A DNA stretch of 64,000 nucleotides. It comes from Wenjunlia tyrosinilytica (lineage in GTDB: Bacteria > Actinomycetota > Actinomycetes > Streptomycetales > Streptomycetaceae). Location of the stretch: NCBI RefSeq assembly GCF_014646055.1, contig NZ_BMMS01000009.1, positions 1-64,000 on the forward strand, in the 5' to 3' direction. The notes beneath the pieces are model-generated. The model did not search any database. It saw only the letters and a program-made list of their open reading frames with translations, and was not told the DNA's origin. Shown here in pieces: positions 2,547-53,799 of the stretch. Every line of letters starts with the position of its first letter. Position 1 is the stretch's first letter. The position numbers and the translations under genes are program-made.

Positions 2547-2561
2547 CTGACTATCCGTCAG
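2547..2561. promoter_or_regulatory. CTGAC-N5-GTCAG operator, site 1
   Basis: CTGAC-TATCC-GTCAG, both arms perfect. It lies 21 bp upstream of the fadD3-like start and shares the divergent promoter region with site 2. Confidence 0.75.
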
Positions 2562-2573
2562 ATTATCGGTAGC

Positions 2574-2588
2574 CTGACGCCCTGTCAG
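2574..2588. promoter_or_regulatory. CTGAC-N5-GTCAG operator, site 2
   Basis: CTGAC-GCCCT-GTCAG, both arms perfect, centred 27 bp from site 1 and about 43 bp before the Ltp start on the plus strand. Confidence 0.75.
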
Positions 2589-4271: not shown

Positions 4272-5044
4272 GCGCGTACAGCACCCTGCTCCACGAGGTG
4301 AAGGACGGCGTCGCGACCGTCACTCTCAACCGGCCCGAGCGCCACAACGCCTTCGACCTCACCATGGTCGACGAGGTCAACGGCCTGTGGCGGGCGCTGC
4401 GCTACGACGACGATGTGCGGGTGGTCGTGCTGACCGGCGCCGGGGACCGGGCGTTCTGCACCGGCATCGACCGCTCGGTCGAAGTGCCCCAGCCCAGCTC
4501 GCCCTTCATGGTCGAGGACCCGGCGCTCCGCCTCGGACCGAAGAGCGCCGATCTGTGGAAGCCGGTGATCGCGGCGGTCAACGGGATGGCGTGCGGAGGC
4601 GCGTTCTACCTGCTCGGCGAGTGCGAGTTCATCATCGCCGCCGAGCACGCGACCTTCTTCGACCCGCACACCACCTACGGCATGGTCAATGCCTTCGAGG
4701 CGGTGCACCTGGCCCAGCGCATGCCGCTGGGCGAGGTGATGCGGCTGGCCCTGCTCGGCACGGCGGAGCGCATGAGCGCGCGCCGGGCGTACGAGAACGG
4801 ACTGGTCTCCGAGGTCGTCCCGGCGCAGGAGTTGCCCGGCGCCGCCGCCAGGTCGGCGTCGGTCATCGCCGGATATCCCCCGGAAGCGGTGCAGGGGACG
4901 GTCCGCGCGGTGTGGGCGGCACGGGAGATGACGCGGTCGCAGGCACTGGCCACGGCGCCGCATCTGGTGCGGCTGGGCAATCTGCCCGCCGACCGCCAGG
5001 AGGGGCTGTTCGCGTCGCGCTCGCGGGAGTTCCGCATCCGCTGA
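4268..5044 (+). CDS. Enoyl-CoA hydratase/isomerase family protein
   Basis: A 258-residue crotonase-fold enzyme starting at a GTG that overlaps the DUF35 stop (GTGA). The first oxyanion-hole segment reads RAFCTGIDRS and the second NGMACGGAFYL. The catalytic Glu positions of classical hydratases are not obvious: the usual PE-x3-G stretch reads FFDPHTTYGM. The reaction may therefore differ from simple hydration. It is third in the Ltp-DUF35 operon and presumably supplies the beta-hydroxyacyl-CoA that the aldolase cleaves, but this is inferred from position only. Confidence 0.75.
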   Translation: MSAYSTLLHEVKDGVATVTLNRPERHNAFDLTMVDEVNGLWRALRYDDDVRVVVLTGAGDRAFCTGIDRSVEVPQPSSPFMVEDPALRLGPKSADLWKPVIAAVNGMACGGAFYLLGECEFIIAAEHATFFDPHTTYGMVNAFEAVHLAQRMPLGEVMRLALLGTAERMSARRAYENGLVSEVVPAQELPGAAARSASVIAGYPPEAVQGTVRAVWAAREMTRSQALATAPHLVRLGNLPADRQEGLFASRSREFRIR

Positions 5045-9518: not shown

Positions 9519-10634
9519 TCAGCGCGGTGGGCAGGCCGGGGCCGGGGCCGGTCCCAGCAGGTCCGCGGCGACGGCTGCGCGGTGGTGGCCCGCGTCGCCC
9601 CACGCGGCCGACAGCGTCCAGGAGCGGCGCATCAGGCGGGCGAGGCCGTGCTCCTCGGTGTAGCCGATCGCGCCGTGGACCTGCAGGCAGGAGCGGGCGG
9701 CCCGCTCGGCGGCGTCCGAGGCGAAGACCTTGGCCATGGAGGCGTCCCTGGCCCACGAGGGGAGGCCCCGGTCGAACGAATGAGCGGCTCGCAGCACCAC
9801 CGGCCGGGCGAACTCGATCGCCATGAGCACATCCGCCAGGTGGTGCTTGACCGCCTGGAAGGAGCCGACGGGGCGGCCGAACTGCTCACGGGCGCCGGTG
9901 TGCGCCACGGCCAGCTCGAGCATGCGCAGGGCGGCTCCGAGGAGCTCGGCGGCGGCCCCGAGCGCCGCGAGGAGGGCCGCGCGCTCCACCGCCGGTCCGC
10001 ACGCGGGGGCGAGCGGCGCGCGGCCGCTCGGCAGCTCGATCCTGGCCGGAGGGCGGCCGGGGTCCACCCCCGGAACGGGGACCGCGTGGCCGCTTTCGAG
10101 CGCGTACAGCTCGCCGCCCTGCCCCACGAGGACCAGATCCGCCTCCGCCCCGCCCACGGCGAAGGGCTCCGGCGGCAGCACCAACGCCAGGCGGGCCTCG
10201 CCCGCGGCGAAGCGGGGCAGCCAGTGGGCGGCCTGCGGTGAGTCGGGGGCGGCGTCGGCGAGGAGCCGGGCGGCGACCGTGTTCTCGAGCAGGGGCTCGG
10301 GCAGGCAGGCCCGGCCGGTCTCCTCCAGCACCGCGACCAGCTCCTCGGCGCCGAGGCCGAGCCCTCCGTACCGCTCGGGGACCGTGAGGGCGGGGGCGCC
10401 GACGTCGGCCAGCGCCCGCCAGGGCCCATCGGCGGCGCCGGGCTCGCCCGCCCCGGGCCCGTCGGCGGCGCCGGGCTCGCCTTCCCATGACTTACCGGTC
10501 CATGACTTGCCCGCCCATGACTTGCCCGCCCATGACTTGCCGGCCCATGACTTGCCGGCGGCGCCCGGCCCGGCGAGCAGGTCGCGCACGGTCCGCCGGA
10601 ACTCCTCCTGCTCGGGCGTGGGTGCGAATCTCAT
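9519..10634 (-). CDS. Acyl-CoA dehydrogenase, FadE31/FadE30-partner type, with internal repeat expansion
   Basis: A 371-residue acyl-CoA dehydrogenase with an N-terminal helical domain, the middle part [18 protein letters not shown] and the C-terminal block [20 protein letters not shown], then [15 protein letters not shown]. Residues about 27-75 are replaced by repeats: five copies of a GKSW-(A/T/E)-G pentapeptide, then two copies of [11 protein letters not shown]. This insertion falls in a surface loop of the N-terminal domain and is encoded by perfect 15-bp and 33-bp repeats. It overlaps the next upstream gene by ATGA, typical of the paired alpha2-beta2 dehydrogenases of steroid degradation. 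The exact paralogue (fadE31, 32 or 33) cannot be assigned by eye. Confidence 0.75.
10428..10482. repeat. 33-bp tandem repeat inside acyl-CoA dehydrogenase gene
   Basis: Two near-identical copies carrying TCGGCGGCGCCGGGCTCGCC, in frame, encode [11 protein letters not shown] twice. They sit next to the 15-bp repeat array. Confidence 0.7.
10485..10559. repeat. Five copies of a 15-bp minisatellite in frame
   Basis: CCATGACTT recurs at 10485, 10500, 10515, 10530 and 10545, exactly 15 bp apart. On the minus strand each unit encodes a GKSW-(A/T/E)-type pentapeptide of the dehydrogenase. Copies differ only at a few third positions. Confidence 0.9.
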
Positions 10635-11791
10635 GGTCGAGGCTCCCTGGGCAGGCCGAGCAGGCGCTCCGCGATCACATTGCGCTGGATCTCATTGGTC
10701 CCCGCGTAGATCGGGCCCGCGAGGGCGAAGACATAGCCGTCGAGCCAGGGGCCGGGCAGGTGGGCGTGGGGGCCGAGCAGGCGCAGCGCGGTGGTGTGCA
10801 GGTCGAGGTCGAGCTCGGACCAGAACACCTTGTTGAGGCTGGACTCGGCGCCGGTCGTCCCGCCGTCCTCGAGCCCGGTGACGGCCCGGAAGGTGTAGAG
10901 CCGGTACGCCTCGGCCCGCATCCACGCGTCCACCACGGCGTCGCGGTGGTCGTGCGGCCGACCGCCGCCGGGAACGGTTCCTTCGCACACGCCCTGGTAG
11001 AGGCCGAGCAGGCGGTCGGCGGCGGCGAGGAACCGGCCGGGTGAGCGGAGGCTGAGCCCGCGTTCGCTGCCGGTGGTGGACATCGCCACCGCCCAGCCCT
11101 GCCCCACCGCCCCCACGACGTCCTCGTCGGGCACGAACACCTCGTCGAGGAACACCTCGGCGAACCCCGTCCCCCCGCCGAGCTGCCGAATCGGCCGGAC
11201 GGTCATCCCCGGCGCCGCGAGATCGACCATGAAGTAGGTCAGCCCGTGATGCCGCCGCGCCCGCGGATCGGTGCGGAACAGACCGAACATGCGGTCCCCG
11301 AACGCGGCCCGGGTGCTCCAGGTCTTCTGCCCGGAAAGCAACCACCCGCCGTCGGCGCGCTCCGCGCGCGAGCGCAGTGCGGCCAGGTCGGATCCGGCTT
11401 CAGGTTCCGACCAGCCCTGCACCCACACCTGCTCGCCCGAGGCCATGGGGGGCAGGACGCGGCGGCGCTGTTCGGGGGTGCCGTACTCGAAGACGGTGGG
11501 GGCGAAGAGGAAGATGCCGTTCTGGGTCACCCGGGCAGGGGCATCCGCGCGGTGGTACTCCTCCTCGAAGATCAGCCACTCGGTGAGGGAGGCCCCGCGC
11601 CCCCCGTACTCCTCGGGCCAGCTCACCACCGCCCACCCGGCCTCGTGGAGCCCGCGCTCCCACTCCCGGTGCCGGGCGAAGCCCTCGGCGGTGTCCATGG
11701 AGGGAAGCGGTTCCGGGGGCACATGGGCCGCGAGCCAGGCCCGTATCTCGTCGCGGAAGCGCCGTTCGGACGCGCTGTAGGCCAGGTCCAT
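10631..11791 (-). CDS. fadE30: FadE30-like acyl-CoA dehydrogenase
   Basis: A full-length acyl-CoA dehydrogenase of 386 residues. It has SWPEEYGGRGASLTEW, the FAD/substrate motif VQGWSEPEAGSDLAALRS (about 125-142), the sheet-domain stretch GQKTWSTRAAFGDRMF, and the C-terminal YAGTNEIQRNVIAERLLGLPR. In mycobacteria FadE30 introduces the first double bond into the propionate side chain of HIP-CoA. It is first in a two-gene operon with the repeat-containing dehydrogenase. The operator at 11806 begins 15 bp upstream of its ATG, leaving almost no room for a leader, so the mRNA may be leaderless. FadE28-34 type paralogues remain possible. Confidence 0.72.
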   Translation of the reverse strand: MDLAYSASERRFRDEIRAWLAAHVPPEPLPSMDTAEGFARHREWERGLHEAGWAVVSWPEEYGGRGASLTEWLIFEEEYHRADAPARVTQNGIFLFAPTVFEYGTPEQRRRVLPPMASGEQVWVQGWSEPEAGSDLAALRSRAERADGGWLLSGQKTWSTRAAFGDRMFGLFRTDPRARRHHGLTYFMVDLAAPGMTVRPIRQLGGGTGFAEVFLDEVFVPDEDVVGAVGQGWAVAMSTTGSERGLSLRSPGRFLAAADRLLGLYQGVCEGTVPGGGRPHDHRDAVVDAWMRAEAYRLYTFRAVTGLEDGGTTGAESSLNKVFWSELDLDLHTTALRLLGPHAHLPGPWLDGYVFALAGPIYAGTNEIQRNVIAERLLGLPREPRP

Positions 11792-11805: not shown

Positions 11806-11820
11806 CTGACACTGCGTCAG
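11806..11820. promoter_or_regulatory. CTGAC-N5-GTCAG operator, site 3
   Basis: CTGAC-ACTGC-GTCAG, perfect arms, in the divergent region between fadE30 (minus) and fadA6 (plus). Confidence 0.75.
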
Positions 11821-11895: not shown

Positions 11896-13047
11896 ATGGG
11901 CGAGGCGTACATCGTCGAAGCGGTACGCACCCCGGTCGGCCGCCGCAAGGGCTCCCTTGCGGCCGTCCACCCGGCCGACCTGGGCGCGCACGTGCTGACC
12001 GCCCTCGTCGAGCGCTGCGGGGTCGACCCGGGCGCCGTCGAGGACGTCGTCTTCGGCTGTCTGGACACCATCGGCGGCCAGGCCGGGGACATCGCCCGCA
12101 CGTGCTGGCTCGCCGCCGGGCTCCCCGAGCACGTCCCCGGCGTCACCCTCGACCGCCAGTGCGGCTCGTCGCAGCAGGCCGTGCACTTCGCGGCGCAGGG
12201 CGTGCTGAGCGGCACCCAGGACCTCGTCGTGGCCGGCGGCGTGCAGAACATGACACGGATCCCCATCGCCGCCGCCATGGCCGCGGGCCAGGAGTACGGC
12301 TTCGAGGACCCCTACTCGGGCTCCGTCGGCTGGCGCAAGCGCTACGGCGACCAGCCGGTGAGCCAGTACCACGGGGCCGAGCTGATCGCCCGGCACTGGG
12401 ACATCGGCCGGGAGGACATGGAGCGGTTCGCCCTGGCCAGCCACCGGAAGGCGCTGCACGCGATCGACAGCGGCTGGTTCGACAAGGAGATCGCTCCCCT
12501 GCCCGAGCTGGCCGTGGACGAGGGACCGCGCCGGGACACCACGCTGGAGAAGATGGCCGGGCTGAAGACGCTGGCCCCGGGCGGGCGGCTGACCGCGGCC
12601 CTGTCCTCGCAGATCTCGGACGGCGCCTCGGCGATGCTGATCGCCTCCGAGCGAGCCGTGGCCGAGCACGGGCTGACCCCGCGCGCCCGGATCCACCACA
12701 TGAGCGTGCGCGGCTCCGACCCGATCATGATGCTGACCGCGCCCATCCCCGCCACGGAGCACGCGCTGGCGAGGACCGGGATGTCGATCGGCGACTTCGA
12801 CGCCATCGAGATCAACGAGGCGTTCGCCTGCGTGGTCCTGGCCTGGCTGAAGGAGACCGGCGCGGACCCGGCGAAGGTCAACCCCTGCGGGGGCGCCATC
12901 GCCCTGGGCCACCCTCTCGGCGCCACCGGCACCAAGCTGATGACCACGCTGCTGCACCAGCTGGAGCGCACGGGCGGCCGCTGGGGCCTGCAGACGATGT
13001 GCGAGGGCGGCGGCCAGGCGAATGTGACGATCATCGAGCGGCTGTGA
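11896..13047 (+). CDS. fadA6: FadA6-like acetyl-CoA C-acyltransferase (thiolase)
   Basis: A canonical 383-residue thiolase. Nucleophilic Cys89 is in DRQCGSSQQAVHF, the His motif is NPCGGAIALGHPLGATGTK near residue 340, and the second Cys is in TMCEGGGQANV. FadA6 of mycobacteria carries out the final thiolysis after ring C opening in the HIP pathway. The neighbouring fadE30, ipdABC and echA20 genes support that role, although other beta-ketoacyl-CoA thiolases share the same motifs. Its ribosome site (GAGGGGCAGGAA) is visible. It is transcribed alone from operator site 3 and ends at a perfect hairpin. Confidence 0.8.
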   Translation: MGEAYIVEAVRTPVGRRKGSLAAVHPADLGAHVLTALVERCGVDPGAVEDVVFGCLDTIGGQAGDIARTCWLAAGLPEHVPGVTLDRQCGSSQQAVHFAAQGVLSGTQDLVVAGGVQNMTRIPIAAAMAAGQEYGFEDPYSGSVGWRKRYGDQPVSQYHGAELIARHWDIGREDMERFALASHRKALHAIDSGWFDKEIAPLPELAVDEGPRRDTTLEKMAGLKTLAPGGRLTAALSSQISDGASAMLIASERAVAEHGLTPRARIHHMSVRGSDPIMMLTAPIPATEHALARTGMSIGDFDAIEINEAFACVVLAWLKETGADPAKVNPCGGAIALGHPLGATGTKLMTTLLHQLERTGGRWGLQTMCEGGGQANVTIIERL

Positions 13048-14029: not shown

Positions 14030-15097
14030 TCAATTCTTCGATGCCGCCAGGCCCTCCAGCACCCCCTCCGCCTCGGCGACGATCCGGGCCAGCAGCTCCG
14101 CGCACGACGGCATGTCCTCGATCACTCCGGTGACCTGCCCCGACGCCATCACCCCCAGGTCCGCGCGGCCGTCGACCATGGCGGCGCGCAGCAGCATCGG
14201 CGTATTCGCCGCCATGAGCACTTGCGGCCAGGTGAGTGAACGCGTGCGCCGCATCGCCCGTCCCTCGCGCAGCATCGCCCGCAGCGGCGTCCCCGACAGG
14301 CGGGCGAAGCGCAGTGCGTTGCGGACCGCCCTCGGGTAGCGGGCGAGGGCGCCACCGCGCTCCAGCGAGGAGACGAAAGGGGTGGCCAGGACCCGGTGGG
14401 CGACGCCGTCCACCTCGCGCGTCACGACCGTTCCGGTGACCTCCGCCGCCAGGTAGCGCTCCCGCACGGCCGGGGGCACCGGGGAGTCGCTGGTCAGCAG
14501 GAAGCGGGTGCCCATGGCGATCCCGTCCGCCCCGTACGCCAGCGCCGCCACCAGCCCGCGGCCGTCGAAGAACCCCCCGGCGGCGACCACGCACACCCCG
14601 CTGCCGCGCAGGGCGTCCACCACCTGCGGCAGCAGGAGCGTCGTCGGCACCGCCCCCGTGTGGCCGCCGCCTTCCCCGCCCTGCACCACGACCGCGTCCA
14701 CCCCCCAGGCGGCCACCTTCTCGGCGTGGCGCCTGGCGCCTACGGAGGGCATCACGAGCATGCCGTGGCCATGGGCGCGCTCGGTGAGCTCCCTGGTGGG
14801 CGCCTGGGCGAACGAGGCCACACGGACGCCCTCGCGCGCCATCAGGTCGATGCGGCGGGCGGCGTCGGGTGCGTCGGCGCGCACATTGACGCCGAACGGG
14901 CGATCGGTGGCCGCCCGCACCTCGGCGACGGCGCGGACCAGTTCCTCGTACGACAGCGTCGCCGACGCCAGGATGCCCAGCCCCCCGGCCTCGGCGGTGG
15001 CGGCGACCAGGGCCGGAAGGGCGACGTAGCCCATCCCGGTCTGGACGACGGGATGCTCGACGCCGGCCAGCCGGGTCAGCGCGGTCTCGATGCTCAT
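14030..15097 (-). CDS. ipdC: IpdC-like flavin-dependent reductase (nitronate monooxygenase/2-NPD fold)
   Basis: A 355-residue TIM-barrel flavoprotein with PVVQTGMGYVALPALVAATA at the start, QGGEGGGHTGAVPTTLLLP around residue 180, VVAAGGFFDGRGLVAALAYG and GIAMGTRFLLTSDS for FMN phosphate binding. IpdC (Rv3553 family) acts in the HIP pathway on the ring C/D acyl-CoA after IpdF. It is last in the operon echA20-ipdA-ipdB-ipdC, with the ATG four bases after the ipdB stop, which supports the name over a generic nitronate monooxygenase. A longer reading frame to 15202 overlaps ipdB and is rejected. Confidence 0.85.
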   Translation of the reverse strand: MSIETALTRLAGVEHPVVQTGMGYVALPALVAATAEAGGLGILASATLSYEELVRAVAEVRAATDRPFGVNVRADAPDAARRIDLMAREGVRVASFAQAPTRELTERAHGHGMLVMPSVGARRHAEKVAAWGVDAVVVQGGEGGGHTGAVPTTLLLPQVVDALRGSGVCVVAAGGFFDGRGLVAALAYGADGIAMGTRFLLTSDSPVPPAVRERYLAAEVTGTVVTREVDGVAHRVLATPFVSSLERGGALARYPRAVRNALRFARLSGTPLRAMLREGRAMRRTRSLTWPQVLMAANTPMLLRAAMVDGRADLGVMASGQVTGVIEDMPSCAELLARIVAEAEGVLEGLAASKN

Positions 15098-15101
15098 GCG
15101 C

Positions 15102-15893
15102 TCATCCCCCCGGCACCTCCGCCTCGCGGGCCCCGGCAGGGTCGAGGACGTCGCGCAGGATGCGCAGCGCCTCCGGGTCCGGTGCGGGGGTGGTGGGCAC
15201 ATCGCCGGGAACGGTGAGCTCGAAGCCCGTCGCCTCCACCACCTGGTCGACGGTCACACCGGGGTGGACGGAGGCCAGACGCATCCGGGGCACGCCACCG
15301 CCGCAGCCCACGCCGCCGCAGCCCCCACCGCCGTCCCCTGCCATGGGCCCGGCAGGCGCGAAGTCCAGCACGGCGAGATCGGTTACGACCCGGCGGATCT
15401 CGTGGAAGCGGGCCGCGTACCCCGCGGACGCCGCCCGGTCGTAGCCGATGCCGCAGACCAGGTCCACCCGCGGGGTCAGCACCCGGGGCGCGTGCCGGGG
15501 GATCCAGTAGCTGGTGGTGTGGTTGACGGTGTTGCCCGGCGCTCCCCGGGCGCCCAGCAACTGCCGCTTGGGGCGCTCCCAGGGGCCGATGCAGGAGATA
15601 TTTGCGTTGCCGTGGGCGTCGATCTGGACCGGGCCCATCATCACGTGGCGGCGACCGGAGGCGAGCAGGTCGAGGACCGCCCGGTACGGCAGCCAGCCCT
15701 CGACGGCCTGCTCGGCGTCGACCAGGTAGGCCTGCCCGTCACTGATCACCAGGTCGGGCTCGAACGTGGCCCTGGCCAGCCGCGCCCCGAGGGACGGCAC
15801 CAGGCCCCCCATGGCACCGGCCAGGATCTCCCCGTCCCCCCGGAACGCCTCGGCGCAGGCGGCCACACACACCTCGGCACGGGTCGCGGTCAC
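15102..15893 (-). CDS. ipdB: IpdB-like CoA-transferase-fold beta subunit (COCHEA-CoA hydrolase)
   Basis: A 263-residue beta subunit of the class I CoA-transferase fold, with GGLVPSLGARLARATFEPDLVIS and ASGRRHVMMGPVQIDAHGNAN. Heteromeric IpdAB is a hydrolase that opens ring C of the steroid nucleus rather than a CoA transferase. The GTG start at 15893 overlaps the ipdA stop (GTGA). A Gly/Cys-rich insertion (GDGGGGCGGVGCGGG, about residues 190-205) encoded by repeats is not expected in the family. The order ipdA-ipdB-ipdC matches the mycobacterial KstR2 regulon. Confidence 0.85.
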   Translation of the reverse strand: MTATRAEVCVAACAEAFRGDGEILAGAMGGLVPSLGARLARATFEPDLVISDGQAYLVDAEQAVEGWLPYRAVLDLLASGRRHVMMGPVQIDAHGNANISCIGPWERPKRQLLGARGAPGNTVNHTTSYWIPRHAPRVLTPRVDLVCGIGYDRAASAGYAARFHEIRRVVTDLAVLDFAPAGPMAGDGGGGCGGVGCGGGVPRMRLASVHPGVTVDQVVEATGFELTVPGDVPTTPAPDPEALRILRDVLDPAGAREAEVPGG

Positions 15894-16702
15894 CGTGGCT
15901 CCGCCTCTCGGGACGCCAGGAAAGTTTCCACAGGCTGTGGATCGCGCACGTAGGCGGCCAGGTACTCGAGATCGCGGCCGTAGTCGGGGCGGCACTCGGT
16001 GAAGTGCGCTCCCCCGGGGGCCTCGACCACGCCATGCGTCATGTACCGGTGGATGACGAGCGCGTGCACGCATCCAGCCTGTTTGAGCAGCTCCCCGGTC
16101 GGCACGATCCGCTCGGTGGAGACATAGGCGCGGTCGGCCGCCTGGCAGAACAGGTCGTCGAAGAACTGGTCGGGGCCGGTGAGGGCGGCGTTCCCGGCGG
16201 CGTCGGCGAGGTTGGTGTGCACCAGCGCCGCGTCCAGCCGCAGCGGCTTGGCCGCCACCACCTCGTCACCGCTGCCGTAGGGGTCGGCGACAGTCCTCAG
16301 GGAGGGGTTGATCCGCAGGATGTCCGAGCCGATCCCGGCACGCACGGGCATGAACGGCAGCCGTAGCGCGGCGGCCCGCAGCCCGGCCAGGAACATCCCC
16401 TCGTCGAGTTCGACCGCCTCGACCGTCCCGGACTCGCGGGCCGCCCGGAAGTGCGGCTCCAGGGGGTGGTCGTCGAGGGAGACGAAGCCGTGGACGACCC
16501 TCCTGGCCTGCCCGGACGCGCACAGCAGGCCGACGTCGGGGCCACCGTAGGAGACGACGGTCAGATCCTTCAGCGACGAGCGCAGGACGGCCCGGACCAG
16601 TGCCATCGGCTTGCGCCGCAGCCCCCAGCCGCCGATCCCCACGGTCATCCCGTCCTCGAGGCGGGCGACCACCTCGTCGGCGGTCATCGTCTTGTCAGCC
16701 AC
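15890..16702 (-). CDS. ipdA: IpdA-like CoA-transferase-fold alpha subunit
   Basis: A 270-residue alpha subunit: MTADEVVARLEDGMTVGIGG near the N-terminus, VELDEGMFLAGLRAAALRLPF around residue 105 (containing the acidic residue that lines the active site in the family), and DAALVHTNLADAAGNA. It pairs with IpdB to hydrolyse the ring C ketone of COCHEA-CoA. GTG at 16702 overlaps the 3' end of echA20, and GGAGGGGG lies 7 bases upstream within echA20, so the two are translationally coupled. An Arg/Gly-rich upstream extension is just the opposite reading of the echA20 tail. Confidence 0.85.
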   Translation of the reverse strand: MADKTMTADEVVARLEDGMTVGIGGWGLRRKPMALVRAVLRSSLKDLTVVSYGGPDVGLLCASGQARRVVHGFVSLDDHPLEPHFRAARESGTVEAVELDEGMFLAGLRAAALRLPFMPVRAGIGSDILRINPSLRTVADPYGSGDEVVAAKPLRLDAALVHTNLADAAGNAALTGPDQFFDDLFCQAADRAYVSTERIVPTGELLKQAGCVHALVIHRYMTHGVVEAPGGAHFTECRPDYGRDLEYLAAYVRDPQPVETFLASREAEPR

Positions 16703-17585
16703 AGCCGTCCCCCTCCAGCGCGGCCCCGGCCGTCGGCCCCTCGGCATGCCCGGCACGGTCCGCCCCAGCCGACTCCGCCCCAGCCGGGCCCGTCCCCGTC
16801 GGCCCCGTCCACGCCGACCCCGTCCGCGTCGGCCCCGTCCCCGCCGACCGGTCCAGGAAGGCGTCACGCAGCCGGTCCGAGACCCCGGTCAGATTGAGCT
16901 GGAAGGTGAACCCCTGCTCGTAGCGGTAGCTGCGTTTGACGTCCACCGGGTCGATCCCGTTCAGTGAGCGCTTCGCCGCCCGGAGCACCGCCGGATCCTT
17001 GGCGGCGATGCGCTCGGCGACCTCCAGGGCCGTGTCACGCAGCTTGTCCCGGTCGACGACGGCGAGCACGGAGCCGTAACCGTGCAGTTCGGCGGCCGTG
17101 GCACCGGCCGCCGTGTACACCATGTGCCGCATCCGCTGCTGGGGAACGAGCCGGGCGAGGTGGGTGGCCGCCCCGAGGGCTCCCCGGTCCACCTCGGGCA
17201 GGGCGAACCAGGCGTCGTGGGAGGCGAGGACCAGGTCCGCGTTGCCCACGAGGCCGATACCCCCGCCGACGCAGAAGCCCTGGACCGCGGCGATCACCGG
17301 CACCGGGCAGTCGTAGACGGCGGCGAAGGCGGCGGCGCAGCCCTCGTTCGCCCCGACGAGGGCGTCGAAGCCGGGTGTCGTCTGCATCTCCTTGATGTCC
17401 ACCCCGGCGCAGAAGCCGCGGCCCTCGGCGCGCAGGACGACGGCCCGGGTCCGCTCGTCGGCTCCTGCCCCGCTCAGCCGCTCGGCGAGGTCGAACCATC
17501 CGCCGACGTCGAGCGCGTTGACCGGCGGGGCGTCGAGCACCACCTCCACGACGCCCGAGTCGAGGCGTTCCTGGCGTATGCCCAT
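16695..17585 (-). CDS. echA20: EchA20-like crotonase-family ring D hydrolase with repetitive tail
   Basis: A 296-residue crotonase with GRGFCAGVDIKEMQTTPGF, oxyanion loop FCVGGGIGLVGNADLVLAS and ALPEVDRGALGAATHLARLV. EchA20 hydrolyses ring D of the HIP-derived CoA thioester. The residues after about 250 do not belong to the fold: roughly 45 residues of Gly/Thr/Pro/Ala repeats (TGPTRTGSAWTGPTGTGP and onwards) encoded by imperfect 15-bp repeats. Start at 17585 has GGGAGG 7 bases upstream. First gene of the ipdABC operon, under operator site 4. Confidence 0.85.
   Translation of the reverse strand: MGIRQERLDSGVVEVVLDAPPVNALDVGGWFDLAERLSGAGADERTRAVVLRAEGRGFCAGVDIKEMQTTPGFDALVGANEGCAAAFAAVYDCPVPVIAAVQGFCVGGGIGLVGNADLVLASHDAWFALPEVDRGALGAATHLARLVPQQRMRHMVYTAAGATAAELHGYGSVLAVVDRDKLRDTALEVAERIAAKDPAVLRAAKRSLNGIDPVDVKRSYRYEQGFTFQLNLTGVSDRLRDAFLDRSAGTGPTRTGSAWTGPTGTGPAGAESAGADRAGHAEGPTAGAALEGDGCG
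16760..16855. repeat. Imperfect 15-bp repeats in the echA20 3' end
   Basis: Units resembling GGCCCCGTCCACGCC and GACCCCGTCCGCGTC follow each other in frame and encode the Gly/Thr/Pro/Ala tail of EchA20. Confidence 0.75.
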
Positions 17586-17606: not shown

Positions 17607-17621
17607 CTGACACACCGTCAG
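17607..17621. promoter_or_regulatory. CTGAC-N5-GTCAG operator, site 4
   Basis: CTGAC-ACACC-GTCAG, perfect arms, in the 60-bp divergent space between echA20 (minus) and the SDR gene (plus); 24 bp from the latter's ATG. Confidence 0.8.
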
Positions 17622-17645: not shown

Positions 17646-18428
17646 ATGGATCTGAACGGACAGGTGGCGCTCGTGACCGGCGGTGGACGCGGTATCGGCC
17701 GGGGTATCACCGAGCGGCTGCTCGCCGCCGGCGCCGAGGTCGTGGTGTGCGGGCGCAACCACCCCGGGGAGCCGCCGTCCGCCGACGGCCGTGCGGCCGT
17801 CTTCCACCGCACGGACGTACGCGACCCCGAGCAGGTCCGGGATCTCGTCTCCTACGTCGAACGATCATTCGGGCGGCTCGATCTGCTGGTGAACAACGCC
17901 GGCGGCTCGCCCCGCGCCGACGCCGCCACCGCCTCCCCCCGCTTCTCCCGGGCCGTCCTCGATCTGAACCTCCTCGGCCCGCTGCACTGCGCCCAGGCGG
18001 CCTACGCGGTGATGCGGCGCCAGCCGGAGGGCGGATCGATCGTCAACATCGGCAGCGTCAGCGGTACCCGCCCCTCTCCCGGGACCGCCGTCTACGGGGC
18101 CGCGAAGGCGGGCCTGGCCTCACTGACCCGCTCCCTGGCGGCGGAGTGGGCCCCGCGGGTCAGGGTCAACTGCCTCGTCGTCGGATTGGTCCTGACGGAC
18201 CAGTCCCACGACCATTACGGGGACGCGGCCGCGCAGGCCGGGATCGGCGCGGCCATTCCGCTGGGACGGCTGGCCTCGGTGGACGAAATCGCAGGTCCCG
18301 TGCTGTTCCTGGCATCTCATGACGCACGGTATGTAACCGGGGCAGAACTCGCTGTTCACGGAGGCGGCGAACGTCCTACCCATTTGCAGGCCACCGAATC
18401 GCGCCCTGATCACCCCTCGGTAAACTGA
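17646..18428 (+). CDS. Short-chain dehydrogenase, Rv3549c-like
   Basis: A classical 260-residue SDR: TGGGRGIGRG (residues 11-20), NNAGGSPRA (about 83-91), catalytic Ser in NIGSVSG, and YGAAK (about 150) with the Tyr-Lys pair. The C-terminal motif GAELAVHGGGE resembles the steroid-cluster SDR Rv3549c of M. tuberculosis, which is in the KstR2 regulon and of unsettled function. It probably oxidises or reduces a hydroxyacyl-CoA intermediate. It is transcribed with the TetR gene, which begins four bases after its stop. Confidence 0.8.
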   Translation: MDLNGQVALVTGGGRGIGRGITERLLAAGAEVVVCGRNHPGEPPSADGRAAVFHRTDVRDPEQVRDLVSYVERSFGRLDLLVNNAGGSPRADAATASPRFSRAVLDLNLLGPLHCAQAAYAVMRRQPEGGSIVNIGSVSGTRPSPGTAVYGAAKAGLASLTRSLAAEWAPRVRVNCLVVGLVLTDQSHDHYGDAAAQAGIGAAIPLGRLASVDEIAGPVLFLASHDARYVTGAELAVHGGGERPTHLQATESRPDHPSVN

Positions 18429-18439
18429 CGGCATGACAG
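18425..18439. promoter_or_regulatory. Degenerate CTGAC-N5-GTCAG site over the TetR start codon
   Basis: CTGAC-GGCAT-GACAG matches nine of ten arm bases and contains both the SDR stop codon and the TetR ATG. It may be an autoregulatory site or a coincidence of coding sequence. Confidence 0.4.
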
Positions 18440-19080
18440 GACAAGTTCGCACCGTCGACGGCCGGGTGGCCGGGCGGCGGGGGCAGGCGACGCGGCAGAA
18501 GCTGCTGGACTGCCTCCGCGAAATGCTCGCGACCTCGGCCTACCGGGACGTCAAGGTGATTGACGTGGCCCGGATGGCGGGAACCTCCCCCGCAACGTTC
18601 TACCAGTACTTCCCCGACGTAGAGGGCGCTGTCCTCGAGATCGCCGAGGAGATGGCCAAGGAGGGGGCGAGCCTGACCGGCCTTGTCGCCGGGCGGTCGT
18701 GGGCCGGCAAGGCCGGCTGGACGACCGCTCAGGAGCTGGTCGAGGGCTTCCTCTCCTTCTGGCGCAAGCACGAGGCGATCCTTCGCGTCGTGGACCTCGG
18801 AGCCGCGGAAGGGGACAAACGGTTCTACAAGATCCGGATGAAGGTCCTCAATCCGGTGACCAACTCGCTCACCGACTCCATCAAGGATCTCCAGGCCAAG
18901 GGCCGGGTGGACAAGGACGTCAATCCGGCGGCCGTGGCGGGTTCGCTCGTCGCCATGCTGGCGGCGGTCGCGTCCCACCAGAAGGGGTTCCAGTCCTGGG
19001 GCGTCAAGCAGGCCGAGCTCCGGCCGAATCTGGCGCTGCTGGCCCATCTCGGCGTCACGGGCAAGAAGCCCACGAAGTAG
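18433..19080 (+). CDS. TetR-family regulator, candidate controller of the catabolic regulon
   Basis: A 215-residue protein. The helix-turn-helix spans about residues 20-66 with VIDVARMAGTSPATFYQYF as recognition region, and an all-helical ligand domain follows. This is the only TetR-type gene in the window. It lies in the middle of the catabolic genes, behind an SDR, in a position comparable to kstR2 of mycobacteria. Its sequence does not resemble KstR2 or KstR as I know them, and the palindrome repeated at neighbouring promoters differs from their operators. A CoA thioester would be the expected inducer by analogy. It ends at a bulged hairpin. Confidence 0.8.
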   Translation: MTGQVRTVDGRVAGRRGQATRQKLLDCLREMLATSAYRDVKVIDVARMAGTSPATFYQYFPDVEGAVLEIAEEMAKEGASLTGLVAGRSWAGKAGWTTAQELVEGFLSFWRKHEAILRVVDLGAAEGDKRFYKIRMKVLNPVTNSLTDSIKDLQAKGRVDKDVNPAAVAGSLVAMLAAVASHQKGFQSWGVKQAELRPNLALLAHLGVTGKKPTK

Positions 19081-21088: not shown

Positions 21089-21103
21089 CTGACGGTCCGT
21101 CAT
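21089..21103. promoter_or_regulatory. CTGAC-N5-GTCAT operator, site 5 (one mismatch)
   Basis: CTGAC-GGTCC-GTCAT, one mismatch in the right arm, 28 bp upstream of the dehydrogenase start on the minus strand. Confidence 0.65.
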
Positions 21104-21262
21104 CTTAGCCGCTCCGGGGCGATGCGCCCATGGAGCCGAACGCGCCGCGACCCTCCCCCTCCCCCTTCCCCGGCCCCTCCCCCGGCCCCGGCCCCGGAGC
21201 ACTCCGCCCCGCGGCTCATCCCCGACGCGGGCGGCGCCGACGGCAGCGACCCGACAGCTGAT

Positions 21263-21277
21263 CTGATGTACCGTCAG
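21263..21277. promoter_or_regulatory. CTGAT-N5-GTCAG operator, site 6 (one mismatch)
   Basis: CTGAT-GTACC-GTCAG ends four bases before the ATG of the second Ltp gene, occupying the place where a ribosome site would be. Confidence 0.65.
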
Positions 21278-26066: not shown

Positions 26067-26480
26067 TCACTCCTGCGCGGCGAGGGTGAAGACGGGAACG
26101 GCGAGGTCGCCCGCATCCTGGCGGAAGGTGAGTCGCAGCGCCGCGCCGACCCGTAGCCGCTCCTGTGCGCAGCCGACGATCTCGGTCATCATGCGCGGGC
26201 CCTCGGCCAGATCCACCACGGCCGCGATGTAGGGAACCCGGTCGCCGAACGGCGGAAGGTCGTTCCTGTGGACGGCGGACCAGGTGTAGAGGACGGCCCG
26301 GCCGCTCGCCCGCTCCCACACCACGTCCTCGCTCCAGCAGCGCGGACAGAACTCCCGGGGGTAGTGGTGGGCCCGGCCGCAGGCGCCGCAGCGGCGGATC
26401 AGCAGACGGCCCTCCTTCGCCGCCTCCCAGTAAGGGCGGGTGAAGGGGTCGATTTCAGGCAGCGCGAACGTATCTGACAT
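26067..26480 (-). CDS. DUF35 OB-fold zinc-ribbon protein, second copy
   Basis: A 137-residue protein. The N-terminal helix PFTRPYWEAAKEGRLLIRRC leads into a zinc ribbon (CGACGRAHHYPREFCPRC) and an OB-fold (GRAVLYTWSAVH; GAALRLTFRQD). It is the probable partner of the second Ltp at 21282, which lacks an adjacent DUF35 gene. The ATG lies inside the operator palindrome (26474-26488) and no ribosome site is present, suggesting a leaderless mRNA. A weak TTGCGC-N18-TCAACT promoter would place the start of transcription at the ATG. Confidence 0.8.
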   Translation of the reverse strand: MSDTFALPEIDPFTRPYWEAAKEGRLLIRRCGACGRAHHYPREFCPRCWSEDVVWERASGRAVLYTWSAVHRNDLPPFGDRVPYIAAVVDLAEGPRMMTEIVGCAQERLRVGAALRLTFRQDAGDLAVPVFTLAAQE

Positions 26481-26488
26481 AGAGTCAG
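26474..26488. promoter_or_regulatory. CTGAC-N5-GTCAG operator, site 7
   Basis: CTGAC-ATAGA-GTCAG, perfect arms, overlapping the start codon of the DUF35 gene (CAT at 26478-26480 on this strand). Confidence 0.75.
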
Positions 26489-32901: not shown

Positions 32902-32916
32902 CTGACGGTGTGTCAG
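32902..32916. promoter_or_regulatory. CTGAC-N5-GTCAG operator, site 8
   Basis: CTGAC-GGTGT-GTCAG, perfect arms, distal member of a pair upstream of the acyl-CoA synthetase. Confidence 0.75.
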
Positions 32917-32925
32917 CTAGGTAAT

Positions 32926-32940
32926 CTGACAGTACGTCAG
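32926..32940. promoter_or_regulatory. CTGAC-N5-GTCAG operator, site 9
   Basis: CTGAC-AGTAC-GTCAG, perfect arms, centred 24 bp from site 8 and about 30 bp before the synthetase start. Confidence 0.8.
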
Positions 32941-42910: not shown

Positions 42911-43696
42911 CTACGGGTGCTGGGAGGAGACCGCGACGACCTCGCCGGTCATGTAGGAGCTGTAGCCGCAGGCGAGGAAGACGATCACGTTGGCCACCTC
43001 CCACGGCTCGGCGGGGCGGCCGAACGCCTCGCGGGAGGCCAGCTCGGCCAGCAGTTCGTCACTGGTGACCCGGGCGAGGTTGGTGTGCATGGCGAGCGAG
43101 GGGGCCACCGCGTTGACCCGCACGCCGAACGGGGCGGCCTCGACGGCGGCGCAGCGCGTCAGCGCCATGACCCCGGCCTTGGCGGCGGCGTAGTGGGCCT
43201 GCCCTGCCTGCGCCCGCCAGCCGAGCACCGAGGCGTTGTTGACGATCACGCCGGTGCCGCGGGGCCGCATATGGCGCAGGGCGGCCCGGGTGCAGCGGAA
43301 GGTGCCGTTCAGCGTCACGTCGAGGACGGTGTGCCACTGCTCGTCGGTCATCTCGGCCAGGTGAGCGGTGCCGCCGAGACCGGCGTTGTTGACCAGGACG
43401 TCGAGGCCGCCGAGTTCAGCGGTGACCTCGGCGAACAGATGCCGTACCTGGTCCTCGTCGGTGACGTCGCAGGGGACGGCGACGGGCCGCTTGCCCATCA
43501 TCCGCTCCAGCTCGCCCGCCGCCTGCCCGAGACGCCGCTCGTGCCGGTCGCTGATGGCGACCACCGCGCCCTCCTCGGCGCAGCGCCTGGCGGTGGCGAA
43601 GCCGATACCGCTGCCCGCGGCGGCGGTGACCAGCACGGTCCGCCCGGCGAGCAGGCCGTGGGGCGGCTCGTGGTCGGGGCGTGTCCGCCCGCTCAC
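42911..43696 (-). CDS. ipdF: IpdF-like short-chain dehydrogenase
   Basis: A 261-residue SDR. It has the unusual cofactor motif VTAAAGSGIGFATARRC, NNAGLGGTAHL, NNASVLGWRAQAGQAHYAAAK with the catalytic Ser/Tyr/Lys, and the C-terminus SYMTGEVVAVSSQHP. These match IpdF (Rv3559c) of mycobacteria, which oxidises the 5-hydroxyl of the HIP-derived CoA thioester. The ATG overlaps the stop of the upstream acyl-CoA dehydrogenase gene (ATGA). It belongs to the operon starting at 45787 under site 10. Confidence 0.85.
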   Translation of the reverse strand: MSGRTRPDHEPPHGLLAGRTVLVTAAAGSGIGFATARRCAEEGAVVAISDRHERRLGQAAGELERMMGKRPVAVPCDVTDEDQVRHLFAEVTAELGGLDVLVNNAGLGGTAHLAEMTDEQWHTVLDVTLNGTFRCTRAALRHMRPRGTGVIVNNASVLGWRAQAGQAHYAAAKAGVMALTRCAAVEAAPFGVRVNAVAPSLAMHTNLARVTSDELLAELASREAFGRPAEPWEVANVIVFLACGYSSYMTGEVVAVSSQHP

Positions 43697-44871
43697 CGCG
43701 GCTCCCTGGGCAGGCCCAGGACGCGTTCGGCGATGATGGTGCGCTGGATCTCGTCCGAGCCGCCGTAGATGGTGTCCGCGCGGCTGAACAGGAACTGCCG
43801 CTGATCGGTGTCGAGTTCGTAGGGCAGTGCCCGGCCGACGGTGGCCTGCGCGCCGCGTACGGCCATGGCGAGTTCACCGAGACGCTGGTGCCAGCCGCCC
43901 CACAGCAGTTTCGCGGTGCTGGCAGCGCCCGGGTCCGCGGTACCCAGGGTCCGCAGGGCGTTGCACCGCATCACCTTCAGCTCCGCCCAGGCGCGCACGA
44001 CACGCTCGCGCAGCACGGGATCGTCCAGCGCCCCGCTGGCGCAGGCGAGTCGCACCACCCGGTCCAGCTCCCTGACGAAGCCGATCTGCTGGCCGAGGGT
44101 GGCCGCGCCCCGTTCGAAGGCCAGCAGTGACATGGCGACCTTCCAGCCCTCGCCCTCCTGCCCGACGCGGGCCTCGGCCCTGGCGCCGTCGAAGAACACC
44201 TCGTTGAACTCGGCCGTCCCCGTCAGCTGCCGGATCGGCCTGACCTCCACACCGGGCTGGTCCATGGGCACCAGCAGGAAGGACAGGCCGCGGTGGCGGT
44301 GGGAGCCGGGGGTGGTGCGGGCGAGGACGAAGCACCAGTCGGCCTCGTGGGCGAGCGAGGTCCACACCTTCTGCCCGGTGACGACGTACCGGGGCTCGCC
44401 CCCGGCGCCGTCACCGTCGCGGGCGGCGATCGTGCGCAGCGAGGCGAGATCGGAGCCGGCGCCGGGCTCGCTGTAGCCCTGGCACCACAGTTCCCGCCCG
44501 CGCGCGATGGGCGGCAGGAAGCGCTCGCGCTGCTCGGGGGTGCCATGGGCGACGAGGGTGGGGGCGAGGAGGTTCTCGCCGATGTGGCCGACGCGGGCCG
44601 GGGCGGCGGCGCGGGCGTACTCCTCGTTGAAGACGACCTGCTGGGTCAGCGGCACCCGGCGGTTGCCGTAGGACCCGTCCCAGGACAGGCCGATCCAGCC
44701 CGCCGCGCCCAACTCGCGCTCCCACTCCAGCCGTTCGCCCACACCGATGTGCCCGGTGCCGGGGCCGCCGAGCCCGCGCAGATGGGCGAACCGGCCGGTC
44801 AGTCGCTCCCGGAGCCATTGCGCGACCTCGGCGCGGAACGCCTCGTCCTCGGGCCCGAAACGGAAGTCCAT
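43693..44871 (-). CDS. Acyl-CoA dehydrogenase (steroid-cluster FadE type)
   Basis: A full-length 392-residue dehydrogenase: LSWDGSYGNRRVPLTQQVVF, the flavin/substrate motif CQGYSEPGAGSDLASLRT (about 130-147), VTGQKVWTSLAHEADWC and the C-terminal YGGSDEIQRTIIAERVLGLPR. It lies between the Rv3548c-like SDR and ipdF, a neighbourhood that resembles mycobacterial fadE genes of the KstR2 regulon. A partner subunit may be one of the other FadE proteins in the locus. Exact orthology was not determined. Confidence 0.8.
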   Translation of the reverse strand: MDFRFGPEDEAFRAEVAQWLRERLTGRFAHLRGLGGPGTGHIGVGERLEWERELGAAGWIGLSWDGSYGNRRVPLTQQVVFNEEYARAAAPARVGHIGENLLAPTLVAHGTPEQRERFLPPIARGRELWCQGYSEPGAGSDLASLRTIAARDGDGAGGEPRYVVTGQKVWTSLAHEADWCFVLARTTPGSHRHRGLSFLLVPMDQPGVEVRPIRQLTGTAEFNEVFFDGARAEARVGQEGEGWKVAMSLLAFERGAATLGQQIGFVRELDRVVRLACASGALDDPVLRERVVRAWAELKVMRCNALRTLGTADPGAASTAKLLWGGWHQRLGELAMAVRGAQATVGRALPYELDTDQRQFLFSRADTIYGGSDEIQRTIIAERVLGLPREPR

Positions 44872-45807: not shown

Positions 45808-45822
45808 CTGACGGACCGTTAG
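45808..45822. promoter_or_regulatory. CTGAC-N5-GTTAG operator, site 10 (one mismatch)
   Basis: CTGAC-GGACC-GTTAG, in the 63-bp divergent region between the SDR (minus) and the cyclase-family gene (plus). Confidence 0.65.
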
Positions 45823-53719: not shown

Positions 53720-53734
53720 CTGATGGTCCGTCAG
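53720..53734. promoter_or_regulatory. CTGAT-N5-GTCAG operator, site 11 (one mismatch)
   Basis: CTGAT-GGTCC-GTCAG, 32 bp upstream of the amidohydrolase start. Confidence 0.7.
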
Positions 53735-53784
53735 TTCTTGTGTTCAGAGGCTATCCCCGGCGCCCGATCCGGGCAATGCTTGCA

Positions 53785-53799
53785 CTGACGGACCGTCAG
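53785..53799. promoter_or_regulatory. CTGAC-N5-GTCAG operator, site 12
   Basis: CTGAC-GGACC-GTCAG, perfect arms, 38 bp upstream of the CoA ligase start on the plus strand. Confidence 0.8.

Follow-up and report, generated by a model that had tools for sequence, protein, structure and literature searches.

A PF19352 TetR-family protein and a CTGAC-N5-GTCAG operator predicted to take the place of KstR2 in one lineage of actinomycete HIP gene clusters

Our analysis indicates that a TetR-family protein of the Pfam family PF19352 (TetR_C_38) probably acts as a repressor at ANCTGACGNNNCGTCAGNT, controls an acyl-CoA/steroid regulon that includes the HIP genes and does the job of KstR2 in the lineage studied here. 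The protein, most likely as a homodimer, would bind ANCTGACGNNNCGTCAGNT at promoters for acyl-CoA and steroid catabolism. These would include the start codon of its own gene as well as two divergent promoters, echA20/SDR and fadE/fadA6. Accumulation of an acyl-CoA thioester of the pathway would then cause the repressor to leave the DNA and the regulon to open. The same arrangement would hold in a lineage of HIP clusters found across several actinomycete families. A TetR switch for HIP catabolism is of a known kind; the new elements, as predicted from sequence, are a regulator of another family and another operator.

The window, by which we mean the whole 64-kb stretch of the Wenjunlia tyrosinilytica genome that was analysed, holds by homology a HIP (steroid C/D-ring) gene cluster, with echA20, ipdA, ipdB, ipdC and fadA6 homologues together (Table 1). 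Profile matches were strong for echA20 (PRK07938, 405 bits) and fadA6 (PRK07801, 697 bits), and the ipdA, ipdB and ipdC homologues are 45-61% identical to the mycobacterial cluster genes. The SDR gene at 17646 was also considered as ipdF. This label was ruled out, as mycobacterial homology and Table 1 of PMC5380842 identify it as the Rv3549c type and the ipdF homologue lies at 42911. An in-frame tandem repeat, (KSWAG)n, was observed at window positions 10480-10560, inside ORF 9519-10634 (minus strand), which encodes an acyl-CoA dehydrogenase.

Table 1. Genes and predicted operators in the window (positions are those of the window)
Feature	Position	Strand	Remarks
Predicted operator pair, 2547-2561 and 2574-2588	2547..2588		Between fadD and ltp-like thiolase; pair kept in Streptomyces
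Two acyl-CoA dehydrogenase genes, fadE type	9519..11791	-	Transcribed away from fadA6, with the 11806 operator in between
Predicted operator CTGACACTGCGTCAG	11806..11820		Divergent promoter fadE / fadA6
fadA6-type thiolase (PRK07801)	11896..13047	+	
HIP core operon: echA20 16695-17585, ipdA 15890-16702, ipdB 15102-15893, ipdC 14030-15097	14030..17585	-	
Predicted operator CTGACACACCGTCAG	17607..17621		60-bp divergent promoter echA20 / Rv3549c-type SDR
SDR oxidoreductase, Rv3549c type (PRK07856)	17646..18428	+	Directly upstream of the regulator
Predicted autoregulatory operator CTGACGGCATGACAG, one mismatch	18425..18439		Spans SDR stop codon and regulator ATG
TetR-family regulator, 215 aa	18433..19080	+	PF19352 (TetR_C_38), recognition helix region AGTSPATFYQYF
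Two one-mismatch sites, 21089-21103 and 21263-21277	21089..21277		Between fadE and thiolase genes; kept in Streptomyces
Predicted operator	26474..26488		Start of DUF35 (OB-fold) gene
Two predicted operators, 32902-32916 and 32926-32940	32902..32940		Upstream of acyl-CoA synthetase (ADP-forming type) / enoyl-CoA hydratase operon; kept in Streptomyces
ipdF homologue 42911-43696 and fadE30 homologue 43693-44871	42911..44871	-	
One-mismatch site	45808..45822		Between SDR gene and cyclase-like gene
One-mismatch site 53720-53734 and exact site 53785-53799	53720..53799		Between amidohydrolase operon and fadD; kept in Streptomyces

The regulator was picked out in an earlier sequence-only reading as a TetR protein seated in the HIP cluster as kstR2 is in mycobacteria. 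It does lie inside the cluster, with echA20-ipdA-ipdB-ipdC and fadA6 nearby, but the slot is a different one. Mycobacterial kstR2 stands between fadA6 and ipdF, with ipdF and fadE30 as neighbours (PMC5380842 Table 1), whereas the window regulator adjoins the Rv3549c-type SDR gene, from whose stop its start is separated by 4 bp.

By its domain matches, the product of 18433-19080 is a TetR protein and a full-length member of PF19352. It matches TetR_C_38 with 244.4 bits over domain positions 1-135 of 135 (Pfam cut-off 23.9) and TetR_N with 25.9 bits (cut-off 24), and the recognition-helix segment is strongly conserved in an alignment of the PF19352 family. In the literature searched we found no paper on PF19352 or TetR_C_38, with no operator, regulon or role described there, and no paper describing a CTGAC-N5-GTCAG operator. 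The predicted structure is all-helical and its Foldseek matches are TetR proteins (single-sequence prediction, mean pLDDT 70). Among characterized TetR proteins, EthR regulates the monooxygenase ethA, which belongs to another pathway, while the FadR proteins repress acyl-CoA catabolism and release DNA upon binding acyl-CoA. EthR of M. tuberculosis (PDB 1t56, 5nz0) is the nearest solved fold to the model (TM ~0.67, 16-17% identity, pLDDT 70) and the best profile match for the family (42 bits, in the N-terminal part only); the identity is very low, and the likeness is one of fold only, taken from a single-sequence model. The acyl-CoA-responsive FadR proteins of Thermus and Bacillus (3anp, 3whb) are among the structural neighbours after EthR, a likeness that comes from the model (mean pLDDT 70) and not from a shown sequence-family relation. 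Such resemblance in fold, to EthR and then to FadR, is loosely consistent with acyl-CoA sensing. The repressor role and an acyl-CoA as inducer are what TetR biology and the gene content would suggest.

Comparison with KstR2 (Rv3557c; PF17932; PDB 4W1U, 4W97) separated the two regulators. Both are TetR regulators within a HIP cluster, and both systems have a palindrome in the divergent echA20/SDR promoter (PMC3068626, PMC5380842), the KstR2 regulon covering echA20-ipdABC, fadA6 and fadE genes in the same reports, as the predicted regulon of the window system does. We built a KstR2 profile, A1, from 15 aligned TetR proteins of other HIP clusters and validated it on the solved KstR2 chains 4W1U and 4W97, which score 330 bits. 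The window protein scores 13.6 bits against A1, and none of the KstR2 structures is found with a profile built on its own family. Two KstR2 proteins checked against Pfam both belong to PF17932 (TetR_C_24), for which the window protein has no match. In a tree of TetR proteins the PF19352 group (100/99) stands apart from the KstR2 group (92/97), so that the clustering with KstR2 that would have spoken against the sequence-only reading was not found, and its view that both the helix-turn-helix and the ligand domain are unlike those of KstR2 is borne out. The KstR2 ligand-domain motif YRFIRDTxW (PMC13176608) is absent from the PF19352 family alignment, the window protein included; HIP-CoA recognition, if any, would therefore use other residues. 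A profile search of the W. tyrosinilytica genome (8.49 Mb, 99.95% complete) gave a best match of 102.6 bits as against 250-342 for KstR2 orthologues, and we conclude that this genome has no KstR2 orthologue.

The operators differ as well, AnCAAGnnCTTGnT for KstR2 and CTGAC-N5-GTCAG for the window system. The window contains no exact copy of AnCAAGnnCTTGnT and seven one-mismatch matches, none of them in HIP promoters and none at the echA20 promoter. We considered whether the window regulator could nonetheless be a KstR2 orthologue that diverged together with its operator. The pathway cluster and the TetR superfamily are the same, and the KstR2 operator does vary by lineage, being GCAAGNNCTTGC in mycobacteria and ACAAACGTTTGG in Streptomyces. 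However, besides the differences in C-terminal family, clade and profile score given above, Streptomyces genomes carry both proteins, KstR2 in the HIP cluster and PF19352 at a separate locus. Their coexistence at different loci marks them as paralogous lineages rather than one diverging orthologue, and we regard the diverged-orthologue explanation as highly improbable.

The distribution of the two regulators divides HIP clusters into two kinds. Across the class, echA20 was above cut-off in 26 of 118 genomes. Six of the 26 had no high-scoring KstR2 (G000, G011, G013, G036, G070 and G109), and these are exactly the six in which PF19352 lies no more than about 2 kb from echA20. Within Streptomycetaceae, PF19352 is present in 160 of 160 genomes and echA20 or HIP genes in 69, the two being linked in members of six genera. 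PF19352 is thus an old core gene of the family and not a newcomer. A tree of EchA20, IpdA, IpdB and IpdC drawn from 41 clusters has a single branch (95/93) that parts the 17 PF19352-linked clusters from all the others. The association is accordingly one deep event rather than many independent ones. Judged by this tree, the PF19352-linked HIP clusters are one lineage spread over several actinomycete families. The genus of the window is represented by one further genome (locus L125, G118:C52), which has no echA20 and carries a fadA6-like thiolase (81%) beside a kinase gene adjoining the regulator; this thiolase is possibly a remnant of the HIP block.

The two kinds of cluster also differ in the promoter of echA20. 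Mycobacterial KstR2 binds between the Rv3549c-type SDR gene and echA20, a gap of 60 bp in M. smegmatis (PMC3068626). We compared this promoter in 43 HIP clusters, 17 linked to PF19352 and 26 others, where "other" means not PF19352-linked and includes one cluster (L122) with no clear KstR2 nearby. CTGAC-N5-GTCAG was present in 17 of 17 linked clusters, as an exact copy in 13 and with one mismatch in 4, and in none of the 26 others, of which 21 had KstR2-type sites resembling GCAAGNNCTTGC or ACAAACGTTTGG. The PF19352-linked loci yielded no kstR2 gene. The Streptomyces-type KstR2 clusters (L099-L104, L120-L126) carry at echA20 a ACAAACGTTTGG-type palindrome, which is a variant form of the KstR2 operator seen in mycobacteria.

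This pattern, together with the placing of the linked HIP enzymes on one side of a branch, supports the regulator replacement suggested in the sequence-only reading as far as the same pathway goes with another transcription factor and another predicted operator. The part that called the transcription factor new did not hold, given its presence throughout Streptomycetaceae. The swap may have gone in either direction, with KstR2 replaced or with KstR2 itself the newcomer. The same data bear on the possibility that PF19352 is a bystander, that is, a core regulator in Streptomycetaceae that serves other acyl-CoA genes and whose neighbouring HIP genes are otherwise controlled or constitutive. The gene is more widespread than the HIP genes, and its locus in Streptomyces lacks them, as this explanation would have it; the palindrome at the echA20 promoter of every linked cluster (families f1, f12 and f14) and of no other, and its occurrence at fadE/fadA6 in many linked clusters, make it unlikely.

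We counted 8 exact copies of CTGAC-N5-GTCAG in the window and 43 in the whole genome (8.49 Mb), where a reversed-pattern control occurs 3 times and about 12 exact sites are expected from the density in genomes without the regulator. All 8 window sites lie at gene starts, as against about 7% of random positions (p=4e-10), and so do 23 of the 43 genomic sites, as against 10% (p=3e-12). Elsewhere, promoter placement was seen for 18 of 20 sites in Streptomyces regulator loci and for 28 of 32 in related HIP loci. The recurrence of the palindrome noted in the sequence-only reading is upheld by these numbers. The predicted regulon, with 43 exact sites of which about 23 are in promoters, is also much wider than that of KstR2 with its three motifs. 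Palindromes with two mismatches numbered 33 in the window, with no excess over shuffles (40 +/- 6); since this is the chance level, only exact and one-mismatch promoter sites are counted as evidence. The fuller consensus of the promoter sites is ANCTGACGNNNCGTCAGNT, in which the outer A and T, 74% conserved, lay outside the search pattern.

Site abundance across genomes tracks PF19352. With family f13 dropped, the 14 genomes with at least 15 sites all have PF19352, and no genome without it reaches that number. Genomes G022, G031, G089 and G011 have few sites despite having PF19352. Family f13 (G012, G035, G053, G069 and G085; L209-L238) was observed to carry 232-473 exact palindromes per genome, with 2-7 for the control, and a divergent PF19352 protein with an identical recognition helix. 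In the one genome sampled (G012) these palindromes were not promoter-enriched (5 of 30 sampled sites, 12% at random), and several of them, hairpin-like, are found where convergent genes end. Family f13 was dropped as support for the regulator-operator pairing on this ground; its palindromes are abundant yet not promoter-located, which means that the same sequence can arise for other reasons.

We infer that the PF19352 protein itself is the palindrome binder. The site at its start codon would fit just as well if another co-conserved transcription factor bound CTGAC-N5-GTCAG and the TetR gene were one of its targets. We give this little credence, as site abundance follows the presence of the regulator and, in three families, PF19352 is the conserved regulator adjoining the sites of the HIP loci. 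Moreover, TetR proteins typically have palindromic operators of 15-19 bp that overlap the start of their own gene, and CTGACGGCATGACAG is likewise found at the regulator's start in the Streptomyces relatives.

Predicted operators also lie well beyond the HIP genes. A Streptomyces genome has an island of about 80 kb that is for the most part syntenic with the window, and the two have site-bearing promoters in common, among them the fadD/ltp pair, the acyl-CoA synthetase pair and the amidohydrolase/fadD promoter. The synteny and the shared promoters lead us to predict that a conserved acyl-CoA island is under the control of PF19352. The fadE-fadE-fadA6, ipdC-ipdB-ipdA-echA20-SDR and ipdF genes are absent from the syntenic Streptomyces island. 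The HIP genes of the window's lineage sit embedded in the island and have operators of like kind; they may have been inserted in this lineage or lost in Streptomyces.

Further sites lie outside the window. They precede a chsH2-chsH1-ltp2-like operon (ltp2: PRK07855, 650 bits), a PRK07798-type ligase (712 bits), which we take to be of the fadD19 type, and DUF35/thiolase, acyl-CoA dehydrogenase and F420-type oxidoreductase genes. At locus L076 (G000:C8:194863-204877, site at 5001) the palindrome stands 4 bp upstream of the start predicted for the chsH2-chsH1-ltp2-like sterol side-chain operon. Placement of this kind hints at PF19352 control of sterol side-chain genes, which mycobacteria put under a separate repressor, KstR. 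That PF19352 is a master regulator, one switch for several stages of steroid degradation, is conceivable, though we would not bet on it; if so, a single regulator and inducer would do the work that is divided between KstR and KstR2.

Control of HIP catabolism in actinobacteria is ascribed to KstR2, and the HIP genes are of importance both for studies of tuberculosis virulence and for industrial steroid production. With the findings reported here, a whole lineage of HIP clusters gains a different predicted switch and operator, and a core Streptomycetaceae regulator family, for which the literature searched describes no role, gains a predicted role and an address on the DNA. A pairwise comparison also becomes possible, with two unrelated repressors at the same promoter of the same pathway, in which one may ask whether both sense the same CoA intermediate.
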